Assembly (NCBI GenBank): GCA_030668705.1
Contig: DAOVFB010000007.1
Span: 1 to 33,275 of the forward strand
DNA from: Candidatus Stahliibacteriota bacterium
GTDB lineage: Bacteria; Hydrothermota; UBA3072
Reading direction: 5' to 3'
DNA length: 33,275 nt
The position numbers and the translations under genes are program-made. Each line of letters starts with the position of its first letter. The stretch's first letter is position 1. The notes under the pieces are model-generated. The model saw only the letters and a list, made by a program, of their open reading frames with translations, did not search any database and was not told where the DNA came from. This document shows, one piece after another, positions 3,299 through 33,275 of this stretch.

Positions 3299-3327
3299 GC
3301 TTTTTTGATTGTAAGATTAGACACAGG

Positions 3328-3420
3328 GATAGTCGCTTCGCTCCAATGCAAAATGCAGATTGCAAAGTGAAAAATGCAAAATTATTCCCTCCTCCACTCA
3401 CCCATTTTAGACACAGATTT
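3328..3420. repeat. Interspersed repeat copy A1 (93 bp, inverted relative to 12261-12353)
   Basis: Reverse complement is identical by eye to 12261-12353 (AAATCTGTGTCTAAAATGGGTGAGTGGAGGAGGGAATAATTTTGCATTTTTCACTTTGCAATCTGCATTTTGCATTGGAGCGAAGCGACTATC). Confidence 0.95.
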
Positions 3421-4040
3421 GAACTGATTAGTATAAACTAAGAACACTGAACTCAGAACTAAATTTTAGACACAGATTTACACTGATATCAATTGATTAA
3501 AAACACATCCCTACACCGGAACGAAACCGCAGATACACGCAGATTAACGCAGAGTAAAAAAGTTAAATAGTTGAGTCGTTGATTAGGAAAAACCCAATGA
3601 ACCCAACGAACCCTATCCACGCTATAGACGCAATAAACGCAGAGAAATATAGTTAAATAGTTGAGTAGTTGAATAGTTAAGTTGGCAAAAAAATAAAACT
3701 AAACCCTAAACCCTAAGACCGAACACCTAATAATGCCACAGAGACATAGAGAACACAGAGGAAGAAAAAATGGTTGTATTGAAAAGAAAAACCAAAAGGA
3801 TAGATAGATATAGCTTTGCTCCATTGTAAAATGCAAAATGTCCTGTTACTCCGTCCGTTTGTTTTCTCGTAAAGTTTGCAAAGACTGACAGCCTCAGCTG
3901 ACTACCGACTTTGGACATTGGACGTTGGACCTTGGACTGATGTTCCCATATCACATACCACATATCACTTATCACGATGATGTTCACTTATCACATACCA
4001 CGATAATCCTAACACGCCAACCGACAAACTGTCCAACCCT
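3421..4040. repeat. Block A of phrase-like intergenic repeats
   Basis: Successive motifs such as gttaaatagttgagtagttgaatagttaagttgg, cgcagattaacgcagag, cccaatgaacccaacgaaccc, ggacattggacgttggac, atcacataccacatatcac. Their reverse complements recur at 32640-33275. Confidence 0.85.
3614..3640. repeat. 9-bp tandem (RC unit GCGTYTATA), 3 units
   Basis: tatccacgc|tatagacgc|aataaacgc; the 32911-32964 counterpart has 6 units. Confidence 0.85.
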
Positions 4041-12079: not shown

Positions 12080-12392
12080 AAGACTCACAAGTACACAGAA
12101 GACAACAAGGGAGTACACGGGTTAAATTAATAAATGAAAATATACATTAGAAAATACCTCTCCTGTCTCTGTGGCATTATTTGGTCTTAGGATTTGGGTT
12201 TTGGTTCTGGGTTCTGAGTTCTAAGTTCTATGTTAAAGGATTGGACAGTGGAACAGTTGAAAATCTGTGTCTAAAATGGGTGAGTGGAGGAGGGAATAAT
12301 TTTGCATTTTTCACTTTGCAATCTGCATTTTGCATTGGAGCGAAGCGACTATCTCTGTGTCTCTGTGGCAAAAAATTAAAAAAGGAGGTAAA
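12080..12392. repeat. Block B of phrase-like repeats, including the 93-bp copy at 12261-12353
   Basis: ctctgtggcattatttggtcttaggatttgggttttggttctgggttctgagttctaagttc followed by the A1-identical segment. Confidence 0.9.
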
Positions 12393-22233: not shown

Positions 22234-22407
22234 ACATATCTAATTGATAATGTTATCAACCGTCTTGTCTGTCAAGGGTTCTGTAAATACAAAATACTAT
22301 GTTCTCTTCCCTTTAGAAAGGCATTTGTTTTCCATTTATTTAAGGTATATCTGTAAGGAACTTGTTCCAATCCAGAAGGAGTTTTACAATCCAGCCGTTC
22401 TGCAAAG

Positions 22408-22548
22408 ATTAATAGATTTTGCTTTCTTCGACCAGTCTGTTATTTGTGCAAGAAAACGATATTCTCCTTTTCCTTCACTATTTACTATTTACACTTCCCT
22501 TGACAAATTGCCTTTAACCTGTCTGCTGACAGATAGATATGTGTTAAG
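22408..22548. repeat. 130-bp direct repeat, copy 1
   Basis: ttaatagattttgct..cagtctgttatttgtgcaagaaaacgatattctccttttccttcactatttactatttacacttcccttgacaaattgcctttaa, matching 25913-26047. Confidence 0.95.
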
Positions 22549-22592
22549 CGACTCGAAGAGCAAGGTTACGAAGCAACCGCAGAGTCGTTAAC
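22543..22592. repeat. Imperfect inverted repeat / hairpin with one extrahelical G
   Basis: GTTAAGCGACTC ... GAGTCGTTAAC with inner GGTT/AACC; the unpaired G (22548) is the only asymmetry in the outer stem. Confidence 0.8.
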
Positions 22593-22610
22593 AAAGGGCG
22601 CTTTTTTAGT

Positions 22611-23285
22611 TTATTTTCCTAATTTTTTATGACAGAGCCACCAGTCAAAACATTCAAACTCGCCTGCCTTGGCTTTTTCCAGTCTCTCTTTAGCGGTTTT
22701 TGCATCAGTTGCGGGCGGTATAATAACGTGATCGCCGACTATCTCATTATTGGGCCAATTTGCTGGCATGGCAACTTTGTTCTTATCAGATATCTGCATA
22801 GCTTCCACTACTCTTAATATCTCATCCATGTTCCTACCTAATTCTTGTGGATAATAGAGAATGATCCTTATCTTTGCCTCGGCATCTACCACAAATACTG
22901 CCCTCACAGTATTGGTTCCTTTTCCAGGATGAATAAGACCAAGTTTCTCAGCGACCGAACCAGTATCGGCAATTATTGGGAATTGAATTTCAACATCCAT
23001 ATTCTCTTTTATCCATTCTTCCCATTTGATATGAGCAAATACTTGGTCAACGCTGAGGCCAATTAAATCGCAATTCATAGCTTTGAACTTGTCGTATCTC
23101 TTTTGAAAGGCCACGAATTCAGTAGTGCACACGGGCGTGAAATCAGCTGGATGACTGAACAAAACAAACCACTTCCCTGCAAAATGGTTGGGGAGTTCCA
23201 TTTGTCCACGGGTTGTCTGCACTTTCATTTCTGGGAACTTATCCCCCAGAAGGGGGATACCTTTTTTTTCTATTGTGTTTTCCAT
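22611..23285 (-). CDS. 1-Cys (Prx6-type) peroxiredoxin
   Basis: [19 protein letters not shown]; start [24 protein letters not shown]. Confidence 0.93.
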
Positions 23286-23354
23286 ATTATTCACCTCCAC
23301 TATCAAGTGATTTTATTCTTTTTATAGTATATCATTATGCCGCCCGTAGTCAAC

Positions 23355-23450
23355 GATTTCATATAACACCCCTGGGGTAAAAGAAGTTCGGTGTAGGGAA
23401 TTTGGATGGAGCGAAGCATAGTCCTTTACACCGTGGTAGCTGAAGTTGAG
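23355..23450 (-). other. Candidate attC-like structured site 1
   Basis: Minus strand CACGGTGTAAAGGACTATGCTTCGCTCCATCCAAATTCCCTACACCGAACTTCTTTTACCCCAGGGGTGTTATATGAAATC; self-complementary CGGTGTA/TACACCG; parallels site 2. Confidence 0.4.
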
Positions 23451-23515
23451 TAAAGAGCCGTATTGTATATCCATCGCGTATGTAGCAAGCAACATTTTAC
23501 TTGCATCATGAATTT

Positions 23516-24175
23516 TTATTTCAAAAAACTAATAGAAAATGCTGGAGAAAAATTCCCACGATTTACAACAAGAGAAAAGCAACTATTGAACCATTTGTAT
23601 TGAAAATTAATTCCCGAAATTATTTTTGGCGAGAATCCTAATAAAGCATTTGAAGAAATATTTTCAGGGAAACCACAATGCCCTATTTCACCCTGTATGC
23701 CGATATATGGCTGAAAATATTTCCCCCAGTGAAAGGGTTTGAGGATTTCAACATTTATATTTGTGAATGTATATTTATCAGATAATTCATAATAATACAT
23801 ATAGGAAAAAGAAAATCTCATCCTGAAATCTTTATTCTTCCATTCAAAATATTTTCCTATACCTAAACCTAAAAAAGTAAGACTATAGGGTTGCTTTTCG
23901 TCAGATAGGTCGGCAATATTGATTTCCCCAAAATATCTTTGGGGCAATCTGAATTTTAAAGAAAAGTTAGCCGTCGCCCCAATCCCTAACTCACCGAATC
24001 TGCCAGAAGACACTTTTAGACCCGTGCCGAGTTCTACCTTTCGTTTATCATTTTCACACAACCCTAAAGAACCGGAAGGCAGAGATAAACTACCAAGGTG
24101 ACTCAAATAACTGTGATGCGGCTCGGGATTTAGTATCGTAAACCATATCATTAATGCATTAAATAATCCCCACAT
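23516..24175 (-). CDS. Hypothetical beta-rich outer-membrane-like protein
   Basis: Amphipathic strand pattern, many aromatic residues, C-terminal ...FSPAFSISFLK. Confidence 0.5.
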   Translation of the reverse strand: MWGLFNALMIWFTILNPEPHHSYLSHLGSLSLPSGSLGLCENDKRKVELGTGLKVSSGRFGELGIGATANFSLKFRLPQRYFGEINIADLSDEKQPYSLTFLGLGIGKYFEWKNKDFRMRFSFSYMYYYELSDKYTFTNINVEILKPFHWGKYFQPYIGIQGEIGHCGFPENISSNALLGFSPKIISGINFQYKWFNSCFSLVVNRGNFSPAFSISFLK

Positions 24176-24176
24176 A

Positions 24177-25103
24177 TTATCTCCAGGCTGGATACTCGTC
24201 GGTAAAATAACTGTATGTAACTTGTAAAGGATTTGAGCCGTCGGAGTTCATTATCCAGATATCTGTATTACCCGACCTTGTTGAACAAAATGTAATCTTT
24301 AAACCATCTTCCAACCACGATGTATACCAACTATCTCCTGATTTTGTCAGATTTGTCTGTTTACTCCCATCAGAACTCATTACCCATACATTTGAGCCCC
24401 TCCCTTCAATATATCGCAAGAACGCAATTTTCTGCCCATTTGGGGACCAGTCAGGGTCGTGGTCCGAATACATGTCATTAGTTAGTCTTACGATATTCTC
24501 CCCTGTTGTGTCCATTACAAAAATTTCATAGTCAGAATCGAGCATCTCATCTGAACTTTCATTCGAATATGCCCTTATCGACTTGAAGGCGATTCTCGAA
24601 CCATCTGGTGACCAATCCGGATCATTATCATTAGTTGGATTATTGGTAAGTCTCCTTTGATTGCTTCCATCTGTATTCATAGTGTATATTTCCTCGTTTC
24701 CATCCCTCCATGAAGCAAAGACTATTTTCTTGCCATCAGGTGAAAAATCCGGATGTCCATCAGCTTTATCGTTATGCGTTAATTGTTTCAAATTTGAACC
24801 ATCCGAATCCATTATCCATATTTCAAATGAATCAAAATTACGAAATGTCCCACGCGTAAACGCAATTCTTTCTCCATTGGATGAAACAGTGCACAGCCAG
24901 TCATCGGTATCACGACTATTAGTAAAATTCTTTATATCTGTTCCATCTGGATTCATCACATATATTTCACAATCTCCTGTTCTGCTGGAAGTAAAGTAGA
25001 TATTGCCTGGAAGGTTCCCCAAATCCTTTTCAGGAAGGAAGGGAGACGAACATCCTGAAAGCAGCAATATAATTATTATAGATAATATTTCTATTTTTCT
25101 CAT
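24177..25103 (-). CDS. TolB-like PD40 beta-propeller lipoprotein
   Basis: Lipobox LLLSGCSS; repeats such as PDWSPDGSRIAFKS and EIYTMNTDGSNQRRLTNNPTNDNDPDWSPDG. Confidence 0.9.
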   Translation of the reverse strand: MRKIEILSIIIILLLSGCSSPFLPEKDLGNLPGNIYFTSSRTGDCEIYVMNPDGTDIKNFTNSRDTDDWLCTVSSNGERIAFTRGTFRNFDSFEIWIMDSDGSNLKQLTHNDKADGHPDFSPDGKKIVFASWRDGNEEIYTMNTDGSNQRRLTNNPTNDNDPDWSPDGSRIAFKSIRAYSNESSDEMLDSDYEIFVMDTTGENIVRLTNDMYSDHDPDWSPNGQKIAFLRYIEGRGSNVWVMSSDGSKQTNLTKSGDSWYTSWLEDGLKITFCSTRSGNTDIWIMNSDGSNPLQVTYSYFTDEYPAWR

Positions 25104-25152
25104 TTAAAACCTTCTTTTCACCTTAAGTAGTTTGATTCCAATTGCTTTACTT

Positions 25153-25187
25153 GATTTCGTATAACTTGTTTTTGTGCGAAGGCCATG
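25153..25187 (-). other. Candidate attC-like half-site
   Basis: GATTTCGTATAAC (25153-25165) matches GATTTCATATAAC (23355-23367) at 12 of 13 positions; followed by GTGCGAAGGCC. Confidence 0.3.
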
Positions 25188-25198
25188 ATGAAATATTA

Positions 25199-25717
25199 CT
25201 AAATAAAATCCTCTTTTAATAATCCAAATACTAATATGTCACGGTAATTATTTCCATCAAAATGAGCTTTTCTTTTCACACCCTCTATTTTAAACCCTAA
25301 ATATTTTAACAGATTAATACTTTTTTCATTATATTCATATGTCTCCGCTTCAATCCTATGAAGTCCACTTAAAAATAAATGTTTCAATAATGCAGACAAG
25401 GCATCCTTCCCAAACCCTTTGCCTCTTGCCTCGCCAAGTGCAAAACGCAACCACGCAATAGTCTTTCTATTGTCCATCCAATTCAAACGAATATACCCTA
25501 TTGGATCAGTCCCATTATTTGGAGTAATCATTAAATATATTTGATTATGGGATTCTATTGCTTGCTTTATATCATTCCTCTGATTTTTTAAAGTGATTTT
25601 TGAGTCGTGATCTAATGCCATGTGTTTAATGAAATGATCCTTTTTCCATTTAGTTATTATATTCGCATCAGATAATTTAACACTTCTTAAAGTAACCTTA
25701 TCACCACAGACATACAT
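25199..25717 (-). CDS. GNAT acetyltransferase (RimJ/RimL-like)
   Basis: LRSVKLSDANIITKWKKD, ARGKGFGKDALSALLKHLFLSGLHRIEAETYEYNEKSINLLKYLGFKIEG. Confidence 0.92.
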   Translation of the reverse strand: MYVCGDKVTLRSVKLSDANIITKWKKDHFIKHMALDHDSKITLKNQRNDIKQAIESHNQIYLMITPNNGTDPIGYIRLNWMDNRKTIAWLRFALGEARGKGFGKDALSALLKHLFLSGLHRIEAETYEYNEKSINLLKYLGFKIEGVKRKAHFDGNNYRDILVFGLLKEDFI

Positions 25718-25745
25718 AATCCCTCCAAAATTTTAAGTGGCTTTT

Positions 25746-25825
25746 GCACAACGGTTTGCGGACATGAAAAGTTGCCGAAGGCATTTGGGTGAAGGTGCGA
25801 AGCACCGAAGCCACAACAACCGTGA
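25746..25825 (-). other. Candidate attC-like structured site 2
   Basis: GCACAAC...; outer arms ACGGTT/AACCGT, inner hairpins TGCCgaaGGCA and GGTGCgaaGCACC. Confidence 0.45.
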
Positions 25826-25870
25826 TAATAATTAAAAGGCTTTTGATAGGTAACATTTAACATATGTATA

Positions 25871-25899
25871 TTTATAGATTACAAATTGGTGTTTGTCAA
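25871..25899 (-). promoter_or_regulatory. Promoter upstream of GNAT
   Basis: Minus strand TTGACA-17-TATAAA. Confidence 0.6.
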
Positions 25900-25912
25900 C
25901 TTCATAAAAAGA

Positions 25913-26047
25913 ATTAATAAATTTTGCTCTAAGGCCAGTCCGTTATTTATGCAAGAAAACGATGTTCTCCTTTTCCTTCACTATTTACTATTCACCATTT
26001 ACTATTACACTCCCCTTGACAAATTGCCTTTAATATGTGTGTTAGGC
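25913..26047. repeat. 130-bp direct repeat, copy 2
   Basis: Matches 22408-22548; ends in GTTAGGC (26041-26047). Confidence 0.95.
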
Positions 26048-26065
26048 GAAGTGTCGATCATCTTC

Positions 26066-26311
26066 TCATTTTCCTTTGTACCTTAAGTATAACTCTAAAA
26101 ATTCTTCTAAACTTATTTCCAAGTCTTCTCTGATTATTTTACGCAAAAGCCCTTTGGGTATGTCCTTGTTTCCATGCACAGGAACGGTGGTTACCCTTCC
26201 ATCTTCTGATCTCAACCTTACATGAGAACCTTTTGTCCTGGTAACCCTAAAGCCCATGGATTCCAAAAACTTTACAAGTCTTCTGCCTTTGATTGCGGGA
26301 AGTTTAGACAT
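26066..26311 (-). CDS. hicA: HicA-family mRNA interferase toxin
   Basis: LPAIKGRRLVKFLESMGFRVTRTKGSHVRLRSEDGRVTTVPVHGNKDIPKGLLRKIIRE. Confidence 0.93.
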   Translation of the reverse strand: MSKLPAIKGRRLVKFLESMGFRVTRTKGSHVRLRSEDGRVTTVPVHGNKDIPKGLLRKIIREDLEISLEEFLELYLRYKGK

Positions 26312-26525
26312 TCCGAGCTACTTCCAGTTCTCTAAATCCTACGAACTTATTAAGCTCCTCGACTTTTGTCTCCTCGAGGCACATCTCTATGACTTCCCTT
26401 ATATTTTCCAGTGCCTCATCTATAGTTTTGCCGTAAGAATGACAACCCCTGAACAGCGGGCAACTTACTATGTAATACTCATCTTCGTCCATCTCAATGA
26501 TTATGGGCAGATGTAATTTTTCCAT
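26304..26525 (-). CDS. hicB: HicB-family antitoxin
   Basis: MEKLHLPIIIEMDEDEYYIVSCPLFRGCHSYGKTIDEALENIREVIEMCLEE; overlaps hicA; upstream gene of the pair. Confidence 0.9.
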   Translation of the reverse strand: MEKLHLPIIIEMDEDEYYIVSCPLFRGCHSYGKTIDEALENIREVIEMCLEETKVEELNKFVGFRELEVARNV

Positions 26526-26527
26526 TT

Positions 26528-26650
26528 TTAACACCTCCAATTGGATATATATGTCTCATATATTAAAGACATTTCGGCTAACTCGTTAATATATGACATA
26601 GAGTTGTATATACCTCCAATTTTGGTTATTTTGACTGTATTATCTTTCAT
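26528..26650 (-). CDS. Putative 40-aa ORF between the hicBA promoter and hicB
   Basis: MKDNTVKITKIGGIYNSMSYINELAEMSLIYETYISNWRC*; ATG 11 nt after the -10; stop precedes the hicB ATG by 2 nt. Confidence 0.4.
   Translation of the reverse strand: MKDNTVKITKIGGIYNSMSYINELAEMSLIYETYISNWRC
26551..26599. promoter_or_regulatory. Inverted repeat upstream of hicB (candidate operator)
   Basis: Perfect 11-bp arms TCATATATTAA (26556-26566) and TTAATATATGA (26586-26596), extended by ATGTC/GACAT. Confidence 0.55.
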
Positions 26651-26661
26651 CTTGATATTCT

Positions 26662-26690
26662 ATTATATAATAAAATATTGGAAAAGTCAA
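26662..26690 (-). promoter_or_regulatory. Promoter of hicBA
   Basis: Minus strand TTGACT-17-TATAAT. Confidence 0.75.
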
Positions 26691-26793
26691 GAAAAAGATT
26701 GAGTCTACCACTCAGGTTTAAGTAAATCGCTTAATGTCAAAAAGTTTACCCGCTTGCCCTATGAATGTTTTCTATTACACTATTACATCGGGG

Positions 26794-26855
26794 TGGAATG
26801 TATAACTATTCCATATGGGCTTGCCCCGTGAAATGTATAACTATTTCACTGGGGC
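26794..26855. repeat. Twin hairpins with identical GTATAACT loops
   Basis: TGGAAT-GTATAACT-ATTCCA (26794-26813) and GCCCCGTGAAAT-GTATAACT-ATTTCAC-t-GGGGC (26823-26855). Confidence 0.85.
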
Positions 26856-27052
26856 CAACCCCCATCTCCCCTATTTTGAACTCGATTCGTATATATTGCC
26901 AAAATGGAGGTATATCTAAAGGTATTTTTCATAATTATAAATATTGATAACCATTTTGTTATACCACGTTATTATCATCAATCATTCTTTATATAAACTT
27001 TCATTTTTTAAAAATTATCATATCAGTCCTCACTAACCCGAATAATTGCAGG

Positions 27053-28342
27053 CTAAAAAAAGAATTTTGCATTTAATTCAGTTTTTAACTCTGATATTTT
27101 TGAACCAAACTCACTGTTAGTTTTTCCATATAAACCAATCAGTTTCATATTAAAACTGACTGCATTAAAACGTTTGTAATTCATGTCCAGACCACTAAGA
27201 AAACTTTTATCATCCACATTAAAAAGAAGATATAAAGACGGAGTAAAATAGAGAAAATAAAATGGCTCAGGATACTGGATTTTAAAATAAAGATAATGGT
27301 TCATTATAAATTGTTCGTTCAGATTTAAGAACCACTTTTTACGCACAAGATCAATTGCCTGTGTATTTTGGGAATCAAATGCATTTTGTGCTGTTGTATA
27401 CCAATCTTGCATTTCCTGTTTACTTAATCCAGCACCATTGTAAATATATTCCAGATAAAAAGTTGCATTAAAGGGTGAAAGATACCGTGTCCCGACAATT
27501 GATTGTACAGTGTTCTTTTCGGCATGTAGTTCAGGATAGCCATTCTCTGCTATCAGCATTTTATCTGTTTCAGGCAGAAATGAGAGTTCGCCATGTATTT
27601 CCCAGTTTGTTAAGATGTTGTGTGCTGCAGCAACACCGATTTTGTAATCAAAATCCTCAGAAACAGTAAAAAAGAGTTCATAATCTGTATTAACAATTAA
27701 AAAATATGTGCGGAATAAGAACCAGTGTTTGTCACCTGTGTCATAATCATCATTCAGTTCTTTATAAACAGGTATAACGACAATTTCCTGTGAAAGATTC
27801 TTGAGTACTTTTGAAGAGAAACTTTTAACATATTCTACGGAAGCTGAGTAATATCCTTCTAAAGAGGCATCAACATTATTAACATCCTTCTGACGACCTG
27901 CATAGGAAACTGGATTATAGATATATCCTTTGCCCCATTTATACAGTTTTTTCCCAAGAAGAACACTCCATCTTGGATTAAACTCATATTTACAATATCC
28001 TTCTAACAGGGAAAGGTCAAAATCAAGAAGCTTTTCAGGATTATTGTATATAATATGTCCGTCACCTGATGAATAAACTGATAATCCGTTTTTTATAAAT
28101 TTTGCACTTGGTACAACCAGTAACAAATAGGTATCCATAAGATTGGGTGTGCTGTTTTTATCAAAATATTTAAGTTTCCAGGACAGACTTTTCTTTTCCG
28201 GAATAATGAGAGATGGTCTAAATTCAGTAGTACCTGAAAACTCAAATGGTTTTTTCTCAAATTCAGACACATCAAAATCATAGTACTGGGAAAAAACAGG
28301 AGATATTATGAAAAGTAAAAGAAAAATCAGGATTTTTGTCAT
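27053..28342 (-). CDS. Predicted outer membrane beta-barrel protein, hypothetical
   Basis: Signal peptide MTKILIFLLLFIISPVFSQ; aromatic-rich strands; C-terminal ELKTELNAKFFF; last gene of the ABC operon. Confidence 0.6.
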   Translation of the reverse strand: MTKILIFLLLFIISPVFSQYYDFDVSEFEKKPFEFSGTTEFRPSLIIPEKKSLSWKLKYFDKNSTPNLMDTYLLLVVPSAKFIKNGLSVYSSGDGHIIYNNPEKLLDFDLSLLEGYCKYEFNPRWSVLLGKKLYKWGKGYIYNPVSYAGRQKDVNNVDASLEGYYSASVEYVKSFSSKVLKNLSQEIVVIPVYKELNDDYDTGDKHWFLFRTYFLIVNTDYELFFTVSEDFDYKIGVAAAHNILTNWEIHGELSFLPETDKMLIAENGYPELHAEKNTVQSIVGTRYLSPFNATFYLEYIYNGAGLSKQEMQDWYTTAQNAFDSQNTQAIDLVRKKWFLNLNEQFIMNHYLYFKIQYPEPFYFLYFTPSLYLLFNVDDKSFLSGLDMNYKRFNAVSFNMKLIGLYGKTNSEFGSKISELKTELNAKFFF

Positions 28343-28349
28343 ACATAAC

Positions 28350-29105
28350 CTAATTTCTCAAATCAGGTATTTTCGGCATATACTGCATTGTAAATACCTC
28401 ATCAGGAAATTCACGAATTGTCATTTTTGAATAGACCATGACTGACCTATACCCCTCATGAAGAGGACTGTCTGTTTCAATAACTGCGGGTCTTTTAATA
28501 CCTTCACTCATAGTCTTTATTTCTTTAAAATAGAGAGTTTTTATCAACATATCAGAAGCTGTATAACACTCTATCTGTGTTGGTACACTATTTTTAACAT
28601 CAACCTTAAAAAGAAGTTTATCATAAGCAACATTACCGGTTTTCGCTTTCAGTGTCATTACATATTCTTCACTGCTTTTATCAAGTTTTACACAATCATA
28701 TTCTTCACTATAGTCCAGACGCATAATATCAGAGTTGTTAAAAATCCCTCCGGTTACAGACTGCATACTTGTAATACGCACTGGTTTACCTACATTGGGA
28801 ATATAGAGCCACATGTTATCGCCAAGTCTTAGTGTAGATCTGCCAACCTCAGTTTTAGGTGACAAAAAGGTTGTTACCATTTTATCATTCCCTTTTTTTG
28901 CAGTATAGAGGACAAACTCTTTTTTCTTTCCATCCGGTTCAATATTAATAAGTTTTCTGTATGATTCAAACGAGACCGGTGTAAGATTACGATCTATTTT
29001 TTTTAGCAATTCATTACCTTCAGTATCAATTTTGCTTGTTTGTGCAAAAAGTATCGATACACACCCTACAAAGCAAAAAAACAATATCTTTTTTATTAAA
29101 TTCAT
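28350..29105 (-). CDS. Outer membrane lipoprotein-sorting (LolA-like) protein
   Basis: Signal peptide; LYTAKKGNDKMVTTFLSPKTEVGRSTLRLGDNMWLYIPNVGKPVRITSMQSVTGGIFNNSDIMRLDYSEEYD. Confidence 0.85.
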   Translation of the reverse strand: MNLIKKILFFCFVGCVSILFAQTSKIDTEGNELLKKIDRNLTPVSFESYRKLINIEPDGKKKEFVLYTAKKGNDKMVTTFLSPKTEVGRSTLRLGDNMWLYIPNVGKPVRITSMQSVTGGIFNNSDIMRLDYSEEYDCVKLDKSSEEYVMTLKAKTGNVAYDKLLFKVDVKNSVPTQIECYTASDMLIKTLYFKEIKTMSEGIKRPAVIETDSPLHEGYRSVMVYSKMTIREFPDEVFTMQYMPKIPDLRN

Positions 29106-29130
29106 AATAACCTCCGTAAAATCCCTTTCT

Positions 29131-30381
29131 TTAACTATAACGCAAAGCTTCTATTGGATCCATATGTGATGCTTTTATTGCTGGTTGTAATGATGCTAAA
29201 ACAGCAACAATTGTTGATACGAGTGTAATCAGTGCCATTTGATCAAATGGTATTGCTGGATCTATCAGAATATTTTCATTTCTTCCAAATGCTATAGTTA
29301 TATGAGCAAATTTTGTGGCAATTATTAATATAACACCAATAATCGAACCAGCAACAGAGCCAAAAAATCCAAGAAAAAGTCCTTCCATAAGAAACATGGT
29401 ACGGATCTTACCAGGCAAAGTACCAATAGCTGTAAGTGTACCGATTTCCTTTATTCTTTCATAAACAGCCATAATCATGACATTGAGAATACTAATAAGT
29501 ACAATGGCTACAAGAAGAATATTAATAAAAAGAGACATAAGATCTATCATTTTTGCGATATTATAAAAAGGTGATAGTTCCTGCCAAGAATGAACTTCAA
29601 AAATAGGTTCTCCCTCCTTGTTCTTCATTTCAACAATTTCAAGAGAAATCTGTCTGGTAACCTTATCCAGTGAACTGATTTTATTAAGCCTTATCGCAAT
29701 TTCACTGAATTCAGGTTCATCCATTCTCAGAACAGTTACTGCATCATCAATATGAATATATCCATATTTACCTGTAGGTCCGACAACTGATTCAACTATT
29801 CCTGCAATTTTAAGATTCTGTCCATTAACAGAGCCATCTACATTATTAACTATCAAAACAATCGATTGCCCGACTTTAAGATTCATACCCTTTGTTACAA
29901 GTTCAGGAAGAAGTATTTCACCTTTTTTTAACATTTCTCCTTTTTTAATACGGGAAGTTAAAAGAGGTGTTACAATAGATTCATCCTTTGGATTGATTCC
30001 GGCTACTTTGATGTTTGTAGTTTCCATATAATTACTAAGCATACCACCCATAAGAATTCTTTTTGAGTATGCTTCAACCCGAGGAATTCTATCAAGTATC
30101 TCTCCCATTTTCTTCATCTGTTTTGCATCTATTGTCTTGTCAAGAGGCAGATTGTCTAAAGAGCTGACATAGCCTTTTCTATGTATCTGCATATGTCCGA
30201 GCATGGAATCCGTTATCTGACCAACCATCATATTTTTAAACGCACCTGATAGTGCAGAAAACAGTAACACTGCTATAACACCAACACTGATTATTGCTAT
30301 AGTAAGTAATGTTCTTCTTTTCTGGCGATAGAGGTTCCTGAATGCGATTTTAATAAGATTACCCATGTGTGACTTCCTCAC
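29131..30381 (-). CDS. FtsX/LolE-type ABC transporter permease
   Basis: IAFRNLYRQKRRTLLTIAIISVGV; C-terminal ILNVMIMAVYERIKEIGTLTAIGTLPGKIRTMFLMEG. Confidence 0.92.
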   Translation of the reverse strand: MRKSHMGNLIKIAFRNLYRQKRRTLLTIAIISVGVIAVLLFSALSGAFKNMMVGQITDSMLGHMQIHRKGYVSSLDNLPLDKTIDAKQMKKMGEILDRIPRVEAYSKRILMGGMLSNYMETTNIKVAGINPKDESIVTPLLTSRIKKGEMLKKGEILLPELVTKGMNLKVGQSIVLIVNNVDGSVNGQNLKIAGIVESVVGPTGKYGYIHIDDAVTVLRMDEPEFSEIAIRLNKISSLDKVTRQISLEIVEMKNKEGEPIFEVHSWQELSPFYNIAKMIDLMSLFINILLVAIVLISILNVMIMAVYERIKEIGTLTAIGTLPGKIRTMFLMEGLFLGFFGSVAGSIIGVILIIATKFAHITIAFGRNENILIDPAIPFDQMALITLVSTIVAVLASLQPAIKASHMDPIEALRYS

Positions 30382-31057
30382 TTTTCATAATAATACCATC
30401 TTCCAGAGTATGAATTATATCAACTACACCAACAATTTTGGGATCATGAGTGGAGAAAATAAAGGTAACTCCACTCTCATCACGCATTTTTTTCATAAGA
30501 CTAATAACCATGAACGCAGTATCATGGTCAAGATTCGCAGTCGGCTCATCAGCAAGTACAATACGGGGTGATGTTGTTAAAGCACGTGCAACGGCAACTC
30601 TCTGCTTTTGTCCTCCAGACAGTTGAGAAGGATATTTAGCTTTCTGATCAAGCATACCTGTTTTTTCAAGTAGTGCGTTAACAATTTTCACACGCTTTTC
30701 CCTTGGAGTCTCTTTTACCATAAGCAGGGGATATTCAACATTTTCATATACCGTTAAAACAGAAATTAAATTAAAATCCTGGAAAATAAATCCAATGTTT
30801 TCTCCTCTGAATATAGCACGTTTTTTAGTTGAAAGTCTGCCTGTCTCTGCACCATCAACCTTCAAAATACCACTTGTTGGTGTATCAAGAGCACCGATAA
30901 GATTAAGCAGTGTCGTTTTTCCACTGCCGGATGGGCCAATAAAAGAGACAAATGTCCCTTTGTTAATATCAACAGTAATATCCTTTAGAGCAGGTACATC
31001 AACTTCTCCAGCCCTGTAGATTTTACTGATATTTTTCATTTCAATAATCTTGTTCAT
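30359..31057 (-). CDS. ABC transporter ATPase (LolD/MacB type)
   Basis: GPSGSGKTTLLN, LSGGQKQRVAVARAL, VLADEPTANLD. Confidence 0.95.
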   Translation of the reverse strand: MNKIIEMKNISKIYRAGEVDVPALKDITVDINKGTFVSFIGPSGSGKTTLLNLIGALDTPTSGILKVDGAETGRLSTKKRAIFRGENIGFIFQDFNLISVLTVYENVEYPLLMVKETPREKRVKIVNALLEKTGMLDQKAKYPSQLSGGQKQRVAVARALTTSPRIVLADEPTANLDHDTAFMVISLMKKMRDESGVTFIFSTHDPKIVGVVDIIHTLEDGIIMKSEEVTHG

Positions 31058-31070
31058 ATGTCCTCCAGAA

Positions 31071-31208
31071 TTAATGTTGGATGTAAATATTAAATTGTGC
31101 GGGGTAAATTTCCGTCGTTTTTGAGCTCTTATGCCCTAAACATCCTTGCTTGCGTTTTAAACCTATTACGAACCACTTACTGGTTATTTTGATTGTATCA
31201 TTCTCCAT
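31071..31208 (-). CDS. Putative 45-aa ORF carrying a tyrosine-recombinase C-terminal-like fragment
   Basis: MENDTIKITSKWFVIGLKRKQGCLGHKSSKTTEIYPAQFNIYIQH*. LGHKSSKTTEIY (31104-31139) resembles the LGHxSxxTTxIY box holding the active-site His and Tyr. Confidence 0.55.
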   Translation of the reverse strand: MENDTIKITSKWFVIGLKRKQGCLGHKSSKTTEIYPAQFNIYIQH

Positions 31209-31219
31209 TTCACTTATCA

Positions 31220-31247
31220 ATAATACGAAGAAATCAAACGAAGTCAA
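31220..31247 (-). promoter_or_regulatory. Promoter of the ABC operon
   Basis: Minus strand TTGACT-16-TATTAT. Confidence 0.6.
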
Positions 31248-31289
31248 GAAAGGTTATAAAGTCAAGAAATCAACCTCCGTCCCCCCTAT

Positions 31290-31353
31290 TTTCTGCGAAG
31301 CCACCAACGGCGGATTTGGGTGAGCAAAGCGGACCGCAGACACGATGTTGTGC
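31290..31353 (-). other. Candidate attC-like structured site 3
   Basis: TCTGCG...CGCAGA stem, GGATTTGGGTGA shared with site 2 (GCATTTGGGTGA), terminal GTTGTGC heptamer. Confidence 0.4.
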
Positions 31354-31381
31354 AGGTATATGAAATTGCACCCACAATCAT

Positions 31382-31744
31382 TCATTCTACCAGTTTTTCG
31401 TCTTCAGGTTTCCAAGGCGGGTCCACAATACACAAAAAGACCAAATCATTCATCCCGGTGTTTTTTATTCTCTGAACCGAGCCCGGAGGAATGTAAATTA
31501 CTTGACCAGCAAATACTTTTTCTTTTTCGTCATATATATACATTTCTCCTTCCCCTTCTAATATGTAGTAAACTTCTGAACTCTTCAACCTATGTGCATG
31601 AGTAATCTCACCAGGCTTAACCTTTGCATGAGCAAGACTATACCTTGTAATAATGTCTTCCTTTAACGGATTTACCAATTCTCTTAAGGCGGTATTGTCG
31701 CCTGCAATTATTTCCCTACATTTTTTCAAATCTTTTATAAACAT
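31382..31744 (-). CDS. Cupin-domain protein
   Basis: AHAKVKPGEITHAHRLKSSEVYYILEGEGEMYIYDE...GQVIYIPPGSVQRIKNTG. Confidence 0.9.
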   Translation of the reverse strand: MFIKDLKKCREIIAGDNTALRELVNPLKEDIITRYSLAHAKVKPGEITHAHRLKSSEVYYILEGEGEMYIYDEKEKVFAGQVIYIPPGSVQRIKNTGMNDLVFLCIVDPPWKPEDEKLVE

Positions 31745-31769
31745 GGTCTTTCCTCCAAATTAGCAATTT

Positions 31770-31802
31770 GGCCTAATGTTCCCAGCATAAAAGAAGTTGC
31801 GA
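31770..31802 (-). other. Candidate attC-like half-site 4
   Basis: Minus strand CGCAACTTCTTTTATGCTGGGAACATTAGGC shares AACTTCTTTTA and a similarly placed core with site 1. Confidence 0.3.
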
Positions 31803-31807
31803 GATTT

Positions 31808-32374
31808 TCATTTTAGTTTTCTTAAACCTTTAAAAACATTCCACATAGGAACTTTATTCATGTATTCTTCGTAATCTGCTCCAAACTTCTTTATATTATT
31901 GGCCACATCTTTTCTAGCAGCTAACCAGAAACATACTGCTGATGGCACACAGAGGATTACCGAAAGTATTGACTGGAAAACCAGGATTAATGCAATAGAC
32001 CAAATAGCCATACCTAAAGTCATCGGCTGGCGAATAACACCGTATATCCCAGTAGTTATTATGACGGTAGATTCAGTCAGTTCACCTGTTGGCTTACCCT
32101 TGTGCTGTAAAGTAGCGATTGCACCGAAGACCAAAAAAGCCGCAGGTGCATATAAAATCCAGCCAATAATCTCTAACCACTTAACATTAGAGTGCGACCA
32201 TGCACCATGCATGCCGATGGTCAATTCAAGTACTAACAGTGTTAAAAATGCACCCAGTCCTATATGAGTATAAATTTCGCTCGTGACATGTTCTTTTATT
32301 GATTCCAATAACCATCTACCATTGATAATCCATATTACAGCGCAAATAACGATACAAAGTATATACCTATACAT
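31808..32374 (-). CDS. ICMT/PEMT-like membrane methyltransferase-family protein
   Basis: Multiple TMs; GIYGVIRQPMTLGMAIWSIAL ... AARKDVANNIKKFGADYEEYMNKVPMW. Confidence 0.75.
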   Translation of the reverse strand: MYRYILCIVICAVIWIINGRWLLESIKEHVTSEIYTHIGLGAFLTLLVLELTIGMHGAWSHSNVKWLEIIGWILYAPAAFLVFGAIATLQHKGKPTGELTESTVIITTGIYGVIRQPMTLGMAIWSIALILVFQSILSVILCVPSAVCFWLAARKDVANNIKKFGADYEEYMNKVPMWNVFKGLRKLK

Positions 32375-32389
32375 ATTATTTACCTCCTC

Positions 32390-32524
32390 TTATACTTTTG
32401 GGAGAGCAATTTCATCTAATACCGCATATCCGAATAGTTCGGACATTCCTCCAATCTGGCATATATGCAAATGGTTCAAATACACATCCCTATAATTGCT
32501 CTTTTTCTCATCTTCTTGACCCAT
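32390..32524 (-). CDS. Putative 44-aa ORF between promoter and methyltransferase gene
   Basis: MGQEDEKKSNYRDVYLNHLHICQIGGMSELFGYAVLDEIALPKV*. Confidence 0.35.
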   Translation of the reverse strand: MGQEDEKKSNYRDVYLNHLHICQIGGMSELFGYAVLDEIALPKV

Positions 32525-32544
32525 CACTCTTATTGTCCTTATTG

Positions 32545-32574
32545 AGTATATAATGGAAATAGAAGAAAAGTCAA
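32545..32574 (-). promoter_or_regulatory. Promoter of the methyltransferase unit
   Basis: Minus strand TTGACT-18-TATACT. Confidence 0.55.
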
Positions 32575-32734
32575 GAAAAGGTTCTTAAGGAGTTTCATCA
32601 TTTTTACGGAAAAAGATCGAGGCTGGAAAACCTCTCCCACAAGGGGTTTGGTATGTTAGGACTATCGTGGTATGTGATAAAGGATACGTGATATGTGGTA
32701 TGTGGGGATTAGTCAAGAGTCGAAAAAAATTGGA

Positions 32735-32762
32735 GTAGGGGCAATTCATGAATTGCCCCTAC
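32735..32762. repeat. Perfect 28-bp palindrome
   Basis: GTAGGGGCAATTCATGAATTGCCCCTAC. Confidence 0.97.
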
Positions 32763-32910
32763 AAGTTTCGCGCAAAACAACGCAGAGCAAGCTCTGCTAC
32801 TCCAGGCTATCAGCAAAATAGCTATAAGTATATAAGTTGGTCGGTTGGTCAGTGTTCTTTTCCAACCTAATCAACGACTCAACTACTCAACTATTTAACT
32901 ATATTTCTCT

Positions 32911-32964
32911 GCGTTTATAGCGTCCATAGCGTTTATTGCGTCTATAGCGTCTATAGCGTGGATA
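32911..32964. repeat. 9-bp tandem (GCGTYYATA), 6 units
   Basis: gcgtttata gcgtccata gcgtttatt gcgtctata gcgtctata gcgtggata. Confidence 0.93.
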
Positions 32965-33275
32965 GGGTTCGTTGGGTTCATTGTGTTTTTCCTATTCAAC
33001 GACTCAACCACTTAACTATATCACTCTGTGTCTCTGTGGCATTATTAGGTCTTGGGTCTTGGGTTTTTTACCAACTTAACTATTCAACTACTCAACTATT
33101 TAACTTTTTTTACTCTGCGTGTATCTGCGGTTTCATTGGACTTTGGACATCGGACATTGGACTAATAACTCTGTGCCCCTGCGGCATTATTAGGTGTTTG
33201 GTTTTGGGTCTTAGGTCTTAGTTTTATTTTCCTACCAACTTAACTATTCAACTACTCAACCACTTAACTATATCA

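Follow-up and report, generated by a model that had tools for sequence, protein, structure and literature searches.

A probable decayed cassette array of an integron-like system without IntI in a Candidatus Stahliibacteriota genome

The window analysed here is a whole contig of 33,275 nucleotides (DAOVFB010000007.1 of assembly GCA_030668705.1, our G000:C136) from a Candidatus Stahliibacteriota genome of 1.89 Mb in 174 contigs that is 92.8% complete. Its block at 22.4-32.6 kb is probably a cassette array that has decayed; it would belong to an integron-like system operating without the integron integrase, IntI. The first-pass annotation, made from the sequence alone, had proposed a decayed or divergent integron-like array; this proposal is supported, with the correction that the system is not a classical integron, because the tyrosine recombinase associated with it in other genomes (here called rec) lacks the IntI-specific domain. 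With somewhat less confidence, we favour the view that many uncultivated bacterial lineages carry a second integron-like gene-capture system. It would be run by a recombinase from the neighbourhood of IntI without the IntI domain, with its own attI-like hairpin and attC-like site family. In many cases this recombinase would have an N-terminal HARP-like domain, to which the binding of folded DNA may have passed. This system would also spawn recombinase-deleted mini-platforms of promoter plus attI-like site, scattered through the cassette arrays.

Three covariance models built without any window sequence, R1, R2 and R3, recognised A, B and C, three sites in all, on the minus strand of the window (Table 1). 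R1 was made from nine sites of relatives, with a starting structure from the RNAalifold consensus of the nine, and R3 from 23 sites that all come from recombinase loci in other genomes. Beyond A, B and C, R1 gave no match in the window up to E = 10, and a fourth R3 match at 31771-31846 was borderline (E = 0.28). Site A is the best preserved in the window, the R' half of site C has decayed, and the half-site next to the cupin gene matches G002:C36:825-859, a segment of an intact site, at 94%. R1 additionally found a well-preserved site elsewhere in the same genome (G000:C75:400-475, in L157; 66 bits).

The first-pass annotation had pointed to five heptamers close to integron cores and to related junction sequences in one orientation. 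All five were confirmed (GCCTAAC at 26047-26041, GCACAAC at 31353-31347, GTTATAT at 23367-23361, GTTATAC at 25165-25159 and GTTGTGC at 25752-25746), and pairwise similarity was significant only for A-B and B-C, and only in the common orientation (p ~0.002). Its remark that the cores depart from GTTRRRY also held: all but GCCTAAC share the core GTTRTRY/RYAYAAC, which departs from the consensus at one and the same position. As for its claim of integron-like sites at these junctions, A, B and C were borne out by R1 and R3. The 25165 core, of which just the 3' end is present, and the 26047 GCCTAAC, the start of a long promoter-bearing repeat found in relatives' arrays, were dropped as family members. 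Site D and core E do not belong to the family, and the hairpin after the peroxiredoxin gene was unrecognised by R1 and R3. Among 199 genomes, A and B are the only places with the shared apex motif GCTTYGC..YCAYCCAAATNCC. A scan of 85,000 genomes and viral contigs for a repeat pattern gave chance matches within coding genes only, and a BLAST search of site B against plasmids gave a single meaningless partial match.

When the window junctions were used as DNA queries, they pointed to contigs of two genomes of the same family, G003 and G002, and of two from the same phylum, G015 and G017. On these contigs, one-directional genes have hairpins of canonical core between them, including multi-cassette arrays; a canonical example is G002:C36:67-142 (GCCTAACAGCGTGTTTGC...GCAAACACGCAAAACGTTAGGC), and some sites of relatives have perfect GCCTAAC/GTTAGGC cores. 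A simple attC scanner, which returned zero matches at a score of at least 23 in ~250 kb of shuffled sequence, scored the G003 and G002 sites at 22-28 and class 1 plasmid attC sites at 24-29. With its canonical core (GTTRRRY) the scanner found no match in the window at a score of at least 21, so the window sites would escape a canonical-core search. R2 matches were present in at least 94 of 390 genomes, within and beyond the phylum; with scoring limited to ~11 candidates per genome, the true number may be higher.

The sites of this family are selected as folded structures, namely long hairpins with strong compensatory change. Among 31 sites, 91.9% of cells were paired (66.7% in shuffles), double-change cells numbered 103 (34.7 in shuffles) and the covariation score was 0.71 (0.25). 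A slide by one base lowered the pairing to ~33-35%, and slides overall gave 28-57%. An independent set of rec-adjacent sites gave 91% paired cells and 76 double-change cells against 27. Model-fitted alignments lean to the structure of the model, yet the start was derived from RNAalifold and sliding makes a very large difference. According to the first-pass annotation, sites which neither fold as hairpins nor recur at other gene boundaries would speak against an integron-like array. Compensatory change conserves the hairpins, and the sites recur at gene boundaries in relatives.

Several R2 matches adjoin IntI-like matches from a search for IntI, and these belong to one gene group, the tyrosine recombinase rec, whose loci were gathered by protein search. 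Downstream same-strand sites were present at 12 of the 13 testable loci, i.e. those with at least 1.8 kb of downstream sequence; when the five loci that had suggested the idea are left out, 7 of 8 have sites, one of them weak (E 0.003-0.006). There were 29 site matches in 314 kb around 28 rec loci, 28 of them in the orientation of rec, versus none in the 323 kb that surround 20 Xer loci. Cassette-like genes with sites stand behind rec in G048, G015, G039, G233, G076 and G063. R3 matched neither class 1 attC nor the negative-control contigs nor the Xer controls. In G039:C25 (L142 12800-13852), rec is flanked by two attC-like sites within an array, as if movable as a cassette.

These distributions bear on the idea that the sites are dispersed structured repeats, REP- or terminator-like, which resemble integron cores by chance and are found with rec because both gather in variable regions. 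Some sites do stand where terminators would be expected, and d(GCGAAGC)-type hairpins are widespread and stable. Such repeats would have to be reconciled with a GTT core that closes the sites at a fixed distance, with positions between genes or operons within arrays, with the shared orientation and the empty Xer loci, and with the attI-like site behind rec, which makes this explanation very improbable.

In a tree, rec, IS91-type recombinases and IntI1 split from Xer at 100/100, with the order within left undecided by the tree. This position outside the Xer clade argues that rec is not an XerC/XerD housekeeping recombinase; among tyrosine recombinases, it belongs in the neighbourhood of IntI and XerA. 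It scores 207-228 bits with the integron integrase model TIGR02249 (cut-off 265), the match falling in two pieces split at 180/234. In an alignment with IntI4 (2a3v), residues 178 to 239 are skipped, rec spending 19 residues there, and ~41 residues of IntI1, the IntI-specific region, are missing from 13 of 13 aligned recs. The N-terminal domain of rec (YNPxFVEKIKTIRGHRWHPEEKYWSFP) is HARP-like, below the Pfam threshold; sub-threshold HARP matches at the same N-terminal position in 5 recs (E 0.0015-0.075) are a lead only. The best G003 recombinase match (G003:C319) was ruled out as the recombinase of the array, belonging as it does to an IS91-like element. The loci L059, L166, L171 and L172 also hold IS91-like elements with an Xer/IntI-like recombinase plus transposase, and these recombinases fall in the broad branch of rec and IntI.

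No intact rec was found in the window's own genome or in same-family genomes; the recombinases of the own genome are Xer-type, plus one short 200-aa recombinase. The block might be an ordinary cluster of attC sites lacking integron-integrases (CALIN), left by a classical integron. Its IntI would have been lost, or would be encoded in the 7% that this metagenome-assembled genome (MAG) lacks. MAGs often contain CALINs (PMC9668308, PMC9024848), and the perfect GCCTAAC/GTTAGGC cores of relatives would fit. Sites A and B lie 2.3 kb apart as located with our own covariance models; by definition, a CALIN has no intI and at least two attC sites that the IntegronFinder model places within less than 4 kb of each other. 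We consider a CALIN unlikely. No IntI (TIGR02249) above cut-off was found in the own and 59 related genomes; there were fragments below cut-off, some of which turned out to be rec, and the IntI-specific stretch was covered by none among the matches listed. Moreover, both the sites and the attI-like elements are linked to rec, and class 1 attC is not picked up by R3.

Behind almost all recs of the group stand an attI-like hairpin and a GTT core, ~60-160 bp away on the same strand. The hairpin stands directly past the rec stop codon and has, at its clearest, a stem of 9-10 bp and a loop of 3 nt; its sequence varies, its form is kept, and it lies ~16 nt ahead of AACRAG followed by GTTRNGCGAAAT. 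Five rec contigs end less than 200 bp past the rec stop and one is gapped exactly after the attI-like GTT, as expected if the downstream sequence varies in the population.

Pieces of this platform are present in the window. The first-pass annotation had reported no intact integrase there and advised looking for one nearby: there is indeed no intact gene, and it had overlooked the recombinase remnants. The wider search yielded rec beside the sites in relatives, and no IntI above cut-off in the 60 genomes. Remnant (ii), ahead of the ABC operon, was matched by tblastn with rec queries (E = 3e-4). Remnant (i), ahead of the methyltransferase gene, resembles the attI-like site of G015, and the attI-like end ahead of HicBA (stretch 26690-26570) includes GTTAGCCGAAAT. 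The 3' end at 25153-25176 has the form AACRAG followed by GTTRYRCGAAAT that is also present behind recs. The ABC operon, HicBA and the methyltransferase gene are each headed by a promoter with a broken recombinase and/or an attI-like remnant, and not solely by attC. A parallel remnant occurs elsewhere in the own genome (G000:C144), with DTIEINSKWSIANYRYIQELLGHKSSKTTEIYTR, then an attI-like site, then a methyltransferase gene. In G003, mini-platforms of promoter, deleted rec and attI-like site are numerous. G003:C531 (L047) is a 20-kb one-directional array in which such mini-platforms have different genes behind each.

Two units of the block have close counterparts in G003, a different genus. 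Positions 26985-31093 are 98.4% identical to G003:C531:3401-7510 over 4110 bp, and 26155-26748 are 97.1% identical to a segment of G003:C251; the enolase region is just 74% identical to that of G003. These identities argue for recent exchange of both units between the genera. In the window the 98% unit begins just behind remnant (ii), and its opposite end, in G003, lies beside GTTATAT. Past tRNA-Arg/enolase the gene order differs in all relatives examined, and the block is absent from that locus there; conserved order would, according to the first-pass annotation, have marked the block as ordinary chromosome. Ordinary chromosome, or a transposon or phage island with a few recombinase relics, would account for a peroxiredoxin that is normal for the phylum and for genes with their own promoters. 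It does not sit with the missing block in relatives, the near-identical unit in another genus, or three site matches plus three platform remnants within 10 kb, and we give it hardly any credence.

The intact form, as seen in other genomes, has rec, then the attI-like site, then same-strand genes, each trailed by a hairpin site whose end reads GAAC directly followed by GTTRRGC. As in integrons, the GTT core may be where rec joins folded single-stranded cassette sites to the attI-like site, and new genes would thereby be placed behind the recombinase promoter. In the present genome, the recombinase genes appear to have shrunk to promoter, first codons, last codons and attI-like pieces, and the sites seem to have drifted. 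The array is probably unable to move on its own any more.

A number of points weigh against this picture. Recombination by the system is something that we infer by analogy with integrons, which applies also to the single-stranded substrate and the crossover point. The contigs behind R1 were partly chosen for resemblance to window segments, which flatters the R1 E-values for B and C and makes R3 the cleaner test, and all E-values are rough owing to a short calibration. The unpaired spacer of the sites is asymmetric (~1 nt versus 5 nt), unlike that of textbook attC. At the rec locus of G307 no site was found despite 9 kb of downstream sequence, G084 has rec and no site was found there, and some genomes carry sites without rec; the MAGs are incomplete.

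Table 1. Features of the 22.4-32.6 kb block, in window coordinates.
Feature	Start	End	Strand	Details
Repeat copy 1	22404	22525	-	Second copy at 25928-26041 (repeat families D4/D5)
Hairpin GTTAACGACTC...GAGTCGCTTAAC	22538	22595	-	After peroxiredoxin gene
Peroxiredoxin (AhpC/TSA + 1-Cys Prx C-term)	22611	23306	-	Pfam domains
Site A, attC-like	23361	23441	-	R' core GTTATAT; R1 1e-6, R2 3.5e-8, R3 4e-12
Outer-membrane-like protein	23516	24175	-	No Pfam match
PD40/TolB-like lipoprotein	24177	25103	-	Domain match
3' end of attI-like/attC-like site	25153	25176	-	CACAAAAACAAGTTATACGAAATC; remainder lost
GNAT acetyltransferase	25199	25717	-	Gene start 29 bp past GTT core of site B
Site B, attC-like	25746	25830	-	R' core GTTGTGC; R1 0.003, R2 1e-5, R3 2e-4
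Long repeat starting GCCTAACACACATATTAAAGGC	25808	26052	-	Internal sigma70-like promoter TTGACA-17-TATAAA, 25871-25899
HicBA toxin-antitoxin pair	26066	26540	-	Domain matches
attI-like remnant (iii)	26570	26614	-	GGTATATACAACTCTATGTCATATATTAACGAG followed by TTAGCCGAAATG, ahead of HicBA
Promoter TTGACT-TATAAT (26662-26690) and first codons of deleted recombinase (MKDNTVKIT, 26624-26650)	26624	26690	-	
ABC-LolA-outer-membrane protein (OMP) operon unit	26985	31093	-	Near-identical copy in G003:C531
Recombinase remnant (ii)	31104	31208	-	MENDTIKITSKWFVIGLKRKQGCLGHKSSKTTEIY; start of rec joined to its C-terminal motif LGHKSSKTTEIY
TTGACT promoter-like element of deleted recombinase	31220	31247	-	Promoter motif
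Site C, attC-like	31284	31353	-	R'' core GCACAAC; R1 0.018, R2 7e-4, R3 0.003
Cupin gene	31382	31744	-	Relatives at 63-73%, incl. G003:C525
3' half of further attC-like site	31770	31798	-	AACTTCTTTTATGCTGGGAACATTAGGCC, immediately before cupin gene
PEMT/NnrU-type methyltransferase	31808	32374	-	Domain match
attI-like remnant (i)	32409	32489	-	Two hairpins, then GGTATTAGATGAAAT; ahead of methyltransferase
Promoter-like element TTGACT...TATATA	32547	32574	-	Ahead of remnant (i)

Gene calls and domain matches agree with the first-pass annotation that every gene at 22.6-32.4 kb is on the minus strand and that the functions are unrelated: peroxiredoxin, PD40/TolB-like protein, GNAT, HicBA, an operon of LolA-like and ABC proteins, cupin and PEMT-type methyltransferase. 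The peroxiredoxin family is commonplace across the phylum, relatives' copies being 58-82% identical, and the contig with the cupin relative (G003:C525) also bears attC sites. The spacing between the GNAT gene and site B is cassette-like. One direction and cassette spacing would fit an integron array; the TTGACT-type promoters of several block genes, which the annotation had rightly noted, contrast with the mostly promoterless cassettes of integrons.

The repeat at 22404-22525 is also found in relatives' cassette arrays (G003:C531:1941-2065, 75%). The longer repeat at 25808-26052 is 76% identical to G003:C531:1924-2173 and is present in G003:C306 and G002:C1. This intergenic element, which runs from the GCCTAAC core and has a near-consensus sigma70 promoter, recurs at L047 1924-2173 and L092 7485-7663, in arrays of G003 and G002; it is possibly a promoter-bearing cassette without an open reading frame (ORF). 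Between the ABC operon and HicBA, tandem 35-nt hairpins at 26793-26862 (GTGGAATGTATAACTATTCCAT... and GTGAAATGTATAACTATTTCAC...) fold strongly and have no known match. An Rfam scan of the window gave nothing beyond two tRNAs. Outside the block, AT-rich composite repeat clusters at 3404-4020 and 32648-33273 are mutually inverted, ~29 kb apart, and share pieces of up to 105 bp at 81-94%; akin words are found near 12.2 kb and in relatives. A 102-nt sequence has inverted intergenic copies at 3319-3420 and 12261-12362 (99% identity), which overlap apparent N-terminal extensions of two ORFs.

IntI is defined by its additional domain, and surveys require this domain (PMC9668308, PMC2426708). Because surveys select for it, they would overlook any system in which it is missing, and we found no description in the open-access literature of cassette arrays with a recombinase that lacks the domain. 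Should rec recombine these hairpins, the capture of cassettes via folded DNA would either predate IntI or have arisen more than once, and the role of the additional domain could be put directly to the test. There would also be one more route of gene exchange in phyla known mainly from metagenomes, with recent transfer between genera indicated by the 98% identical unit.

Among known systems, NF040815 (XerA-type, 'site-specific tyrosine recombinase/integron integrase' in NCBIfam) comes close to rec, which scores 214-244 bits (cut-off 220); that family name is an annotation label, and in the literature searched no cassette array or attC partner was found described for it. IS91-like elements with an Xer-like recombinase, such as G003:C319, share the broad branch of rec, but there a transposase gene follows the recombinase, without an attI-like site or site matches nearby. 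Like CALINs, the block has no intact integrase gene and has two or more attC-like sites, as placed by our own models, within 4 kb; it differs in that the integrase linked to the sites in relatives is not IntI and that remnants of the rec platform are present. With integrons (IntI-attI-attC) of the sedentary chromosomal type the system has in common a recombinase gene, an adjacent attI-like site, and one-directional genes of variable, unrelated cargo, each with a folded hairpin site and a GTT core. In contrast to these, rec lacks the IntI-specific additional domain of ~41 residues (patch III region), often has an extra N-terminal domain and is codirectional with its array; the attI-like site itself forms a hairpin, and the cassette sites have the asymmetric spacer and a conserved CCCAAAT apex. 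As regards attC, fold and covariation are found for the family and canonical cores in G002 and G003, the window holding decayed sites with GTTRTRY cores; as regards attI, relatives have the attI-like hairpin with GTT core and the window its remnants (32409-32489 and 26570-26614). In layout the system is integron-like; by the defining test, the IntI-specific domain, it falls outside the integrons.

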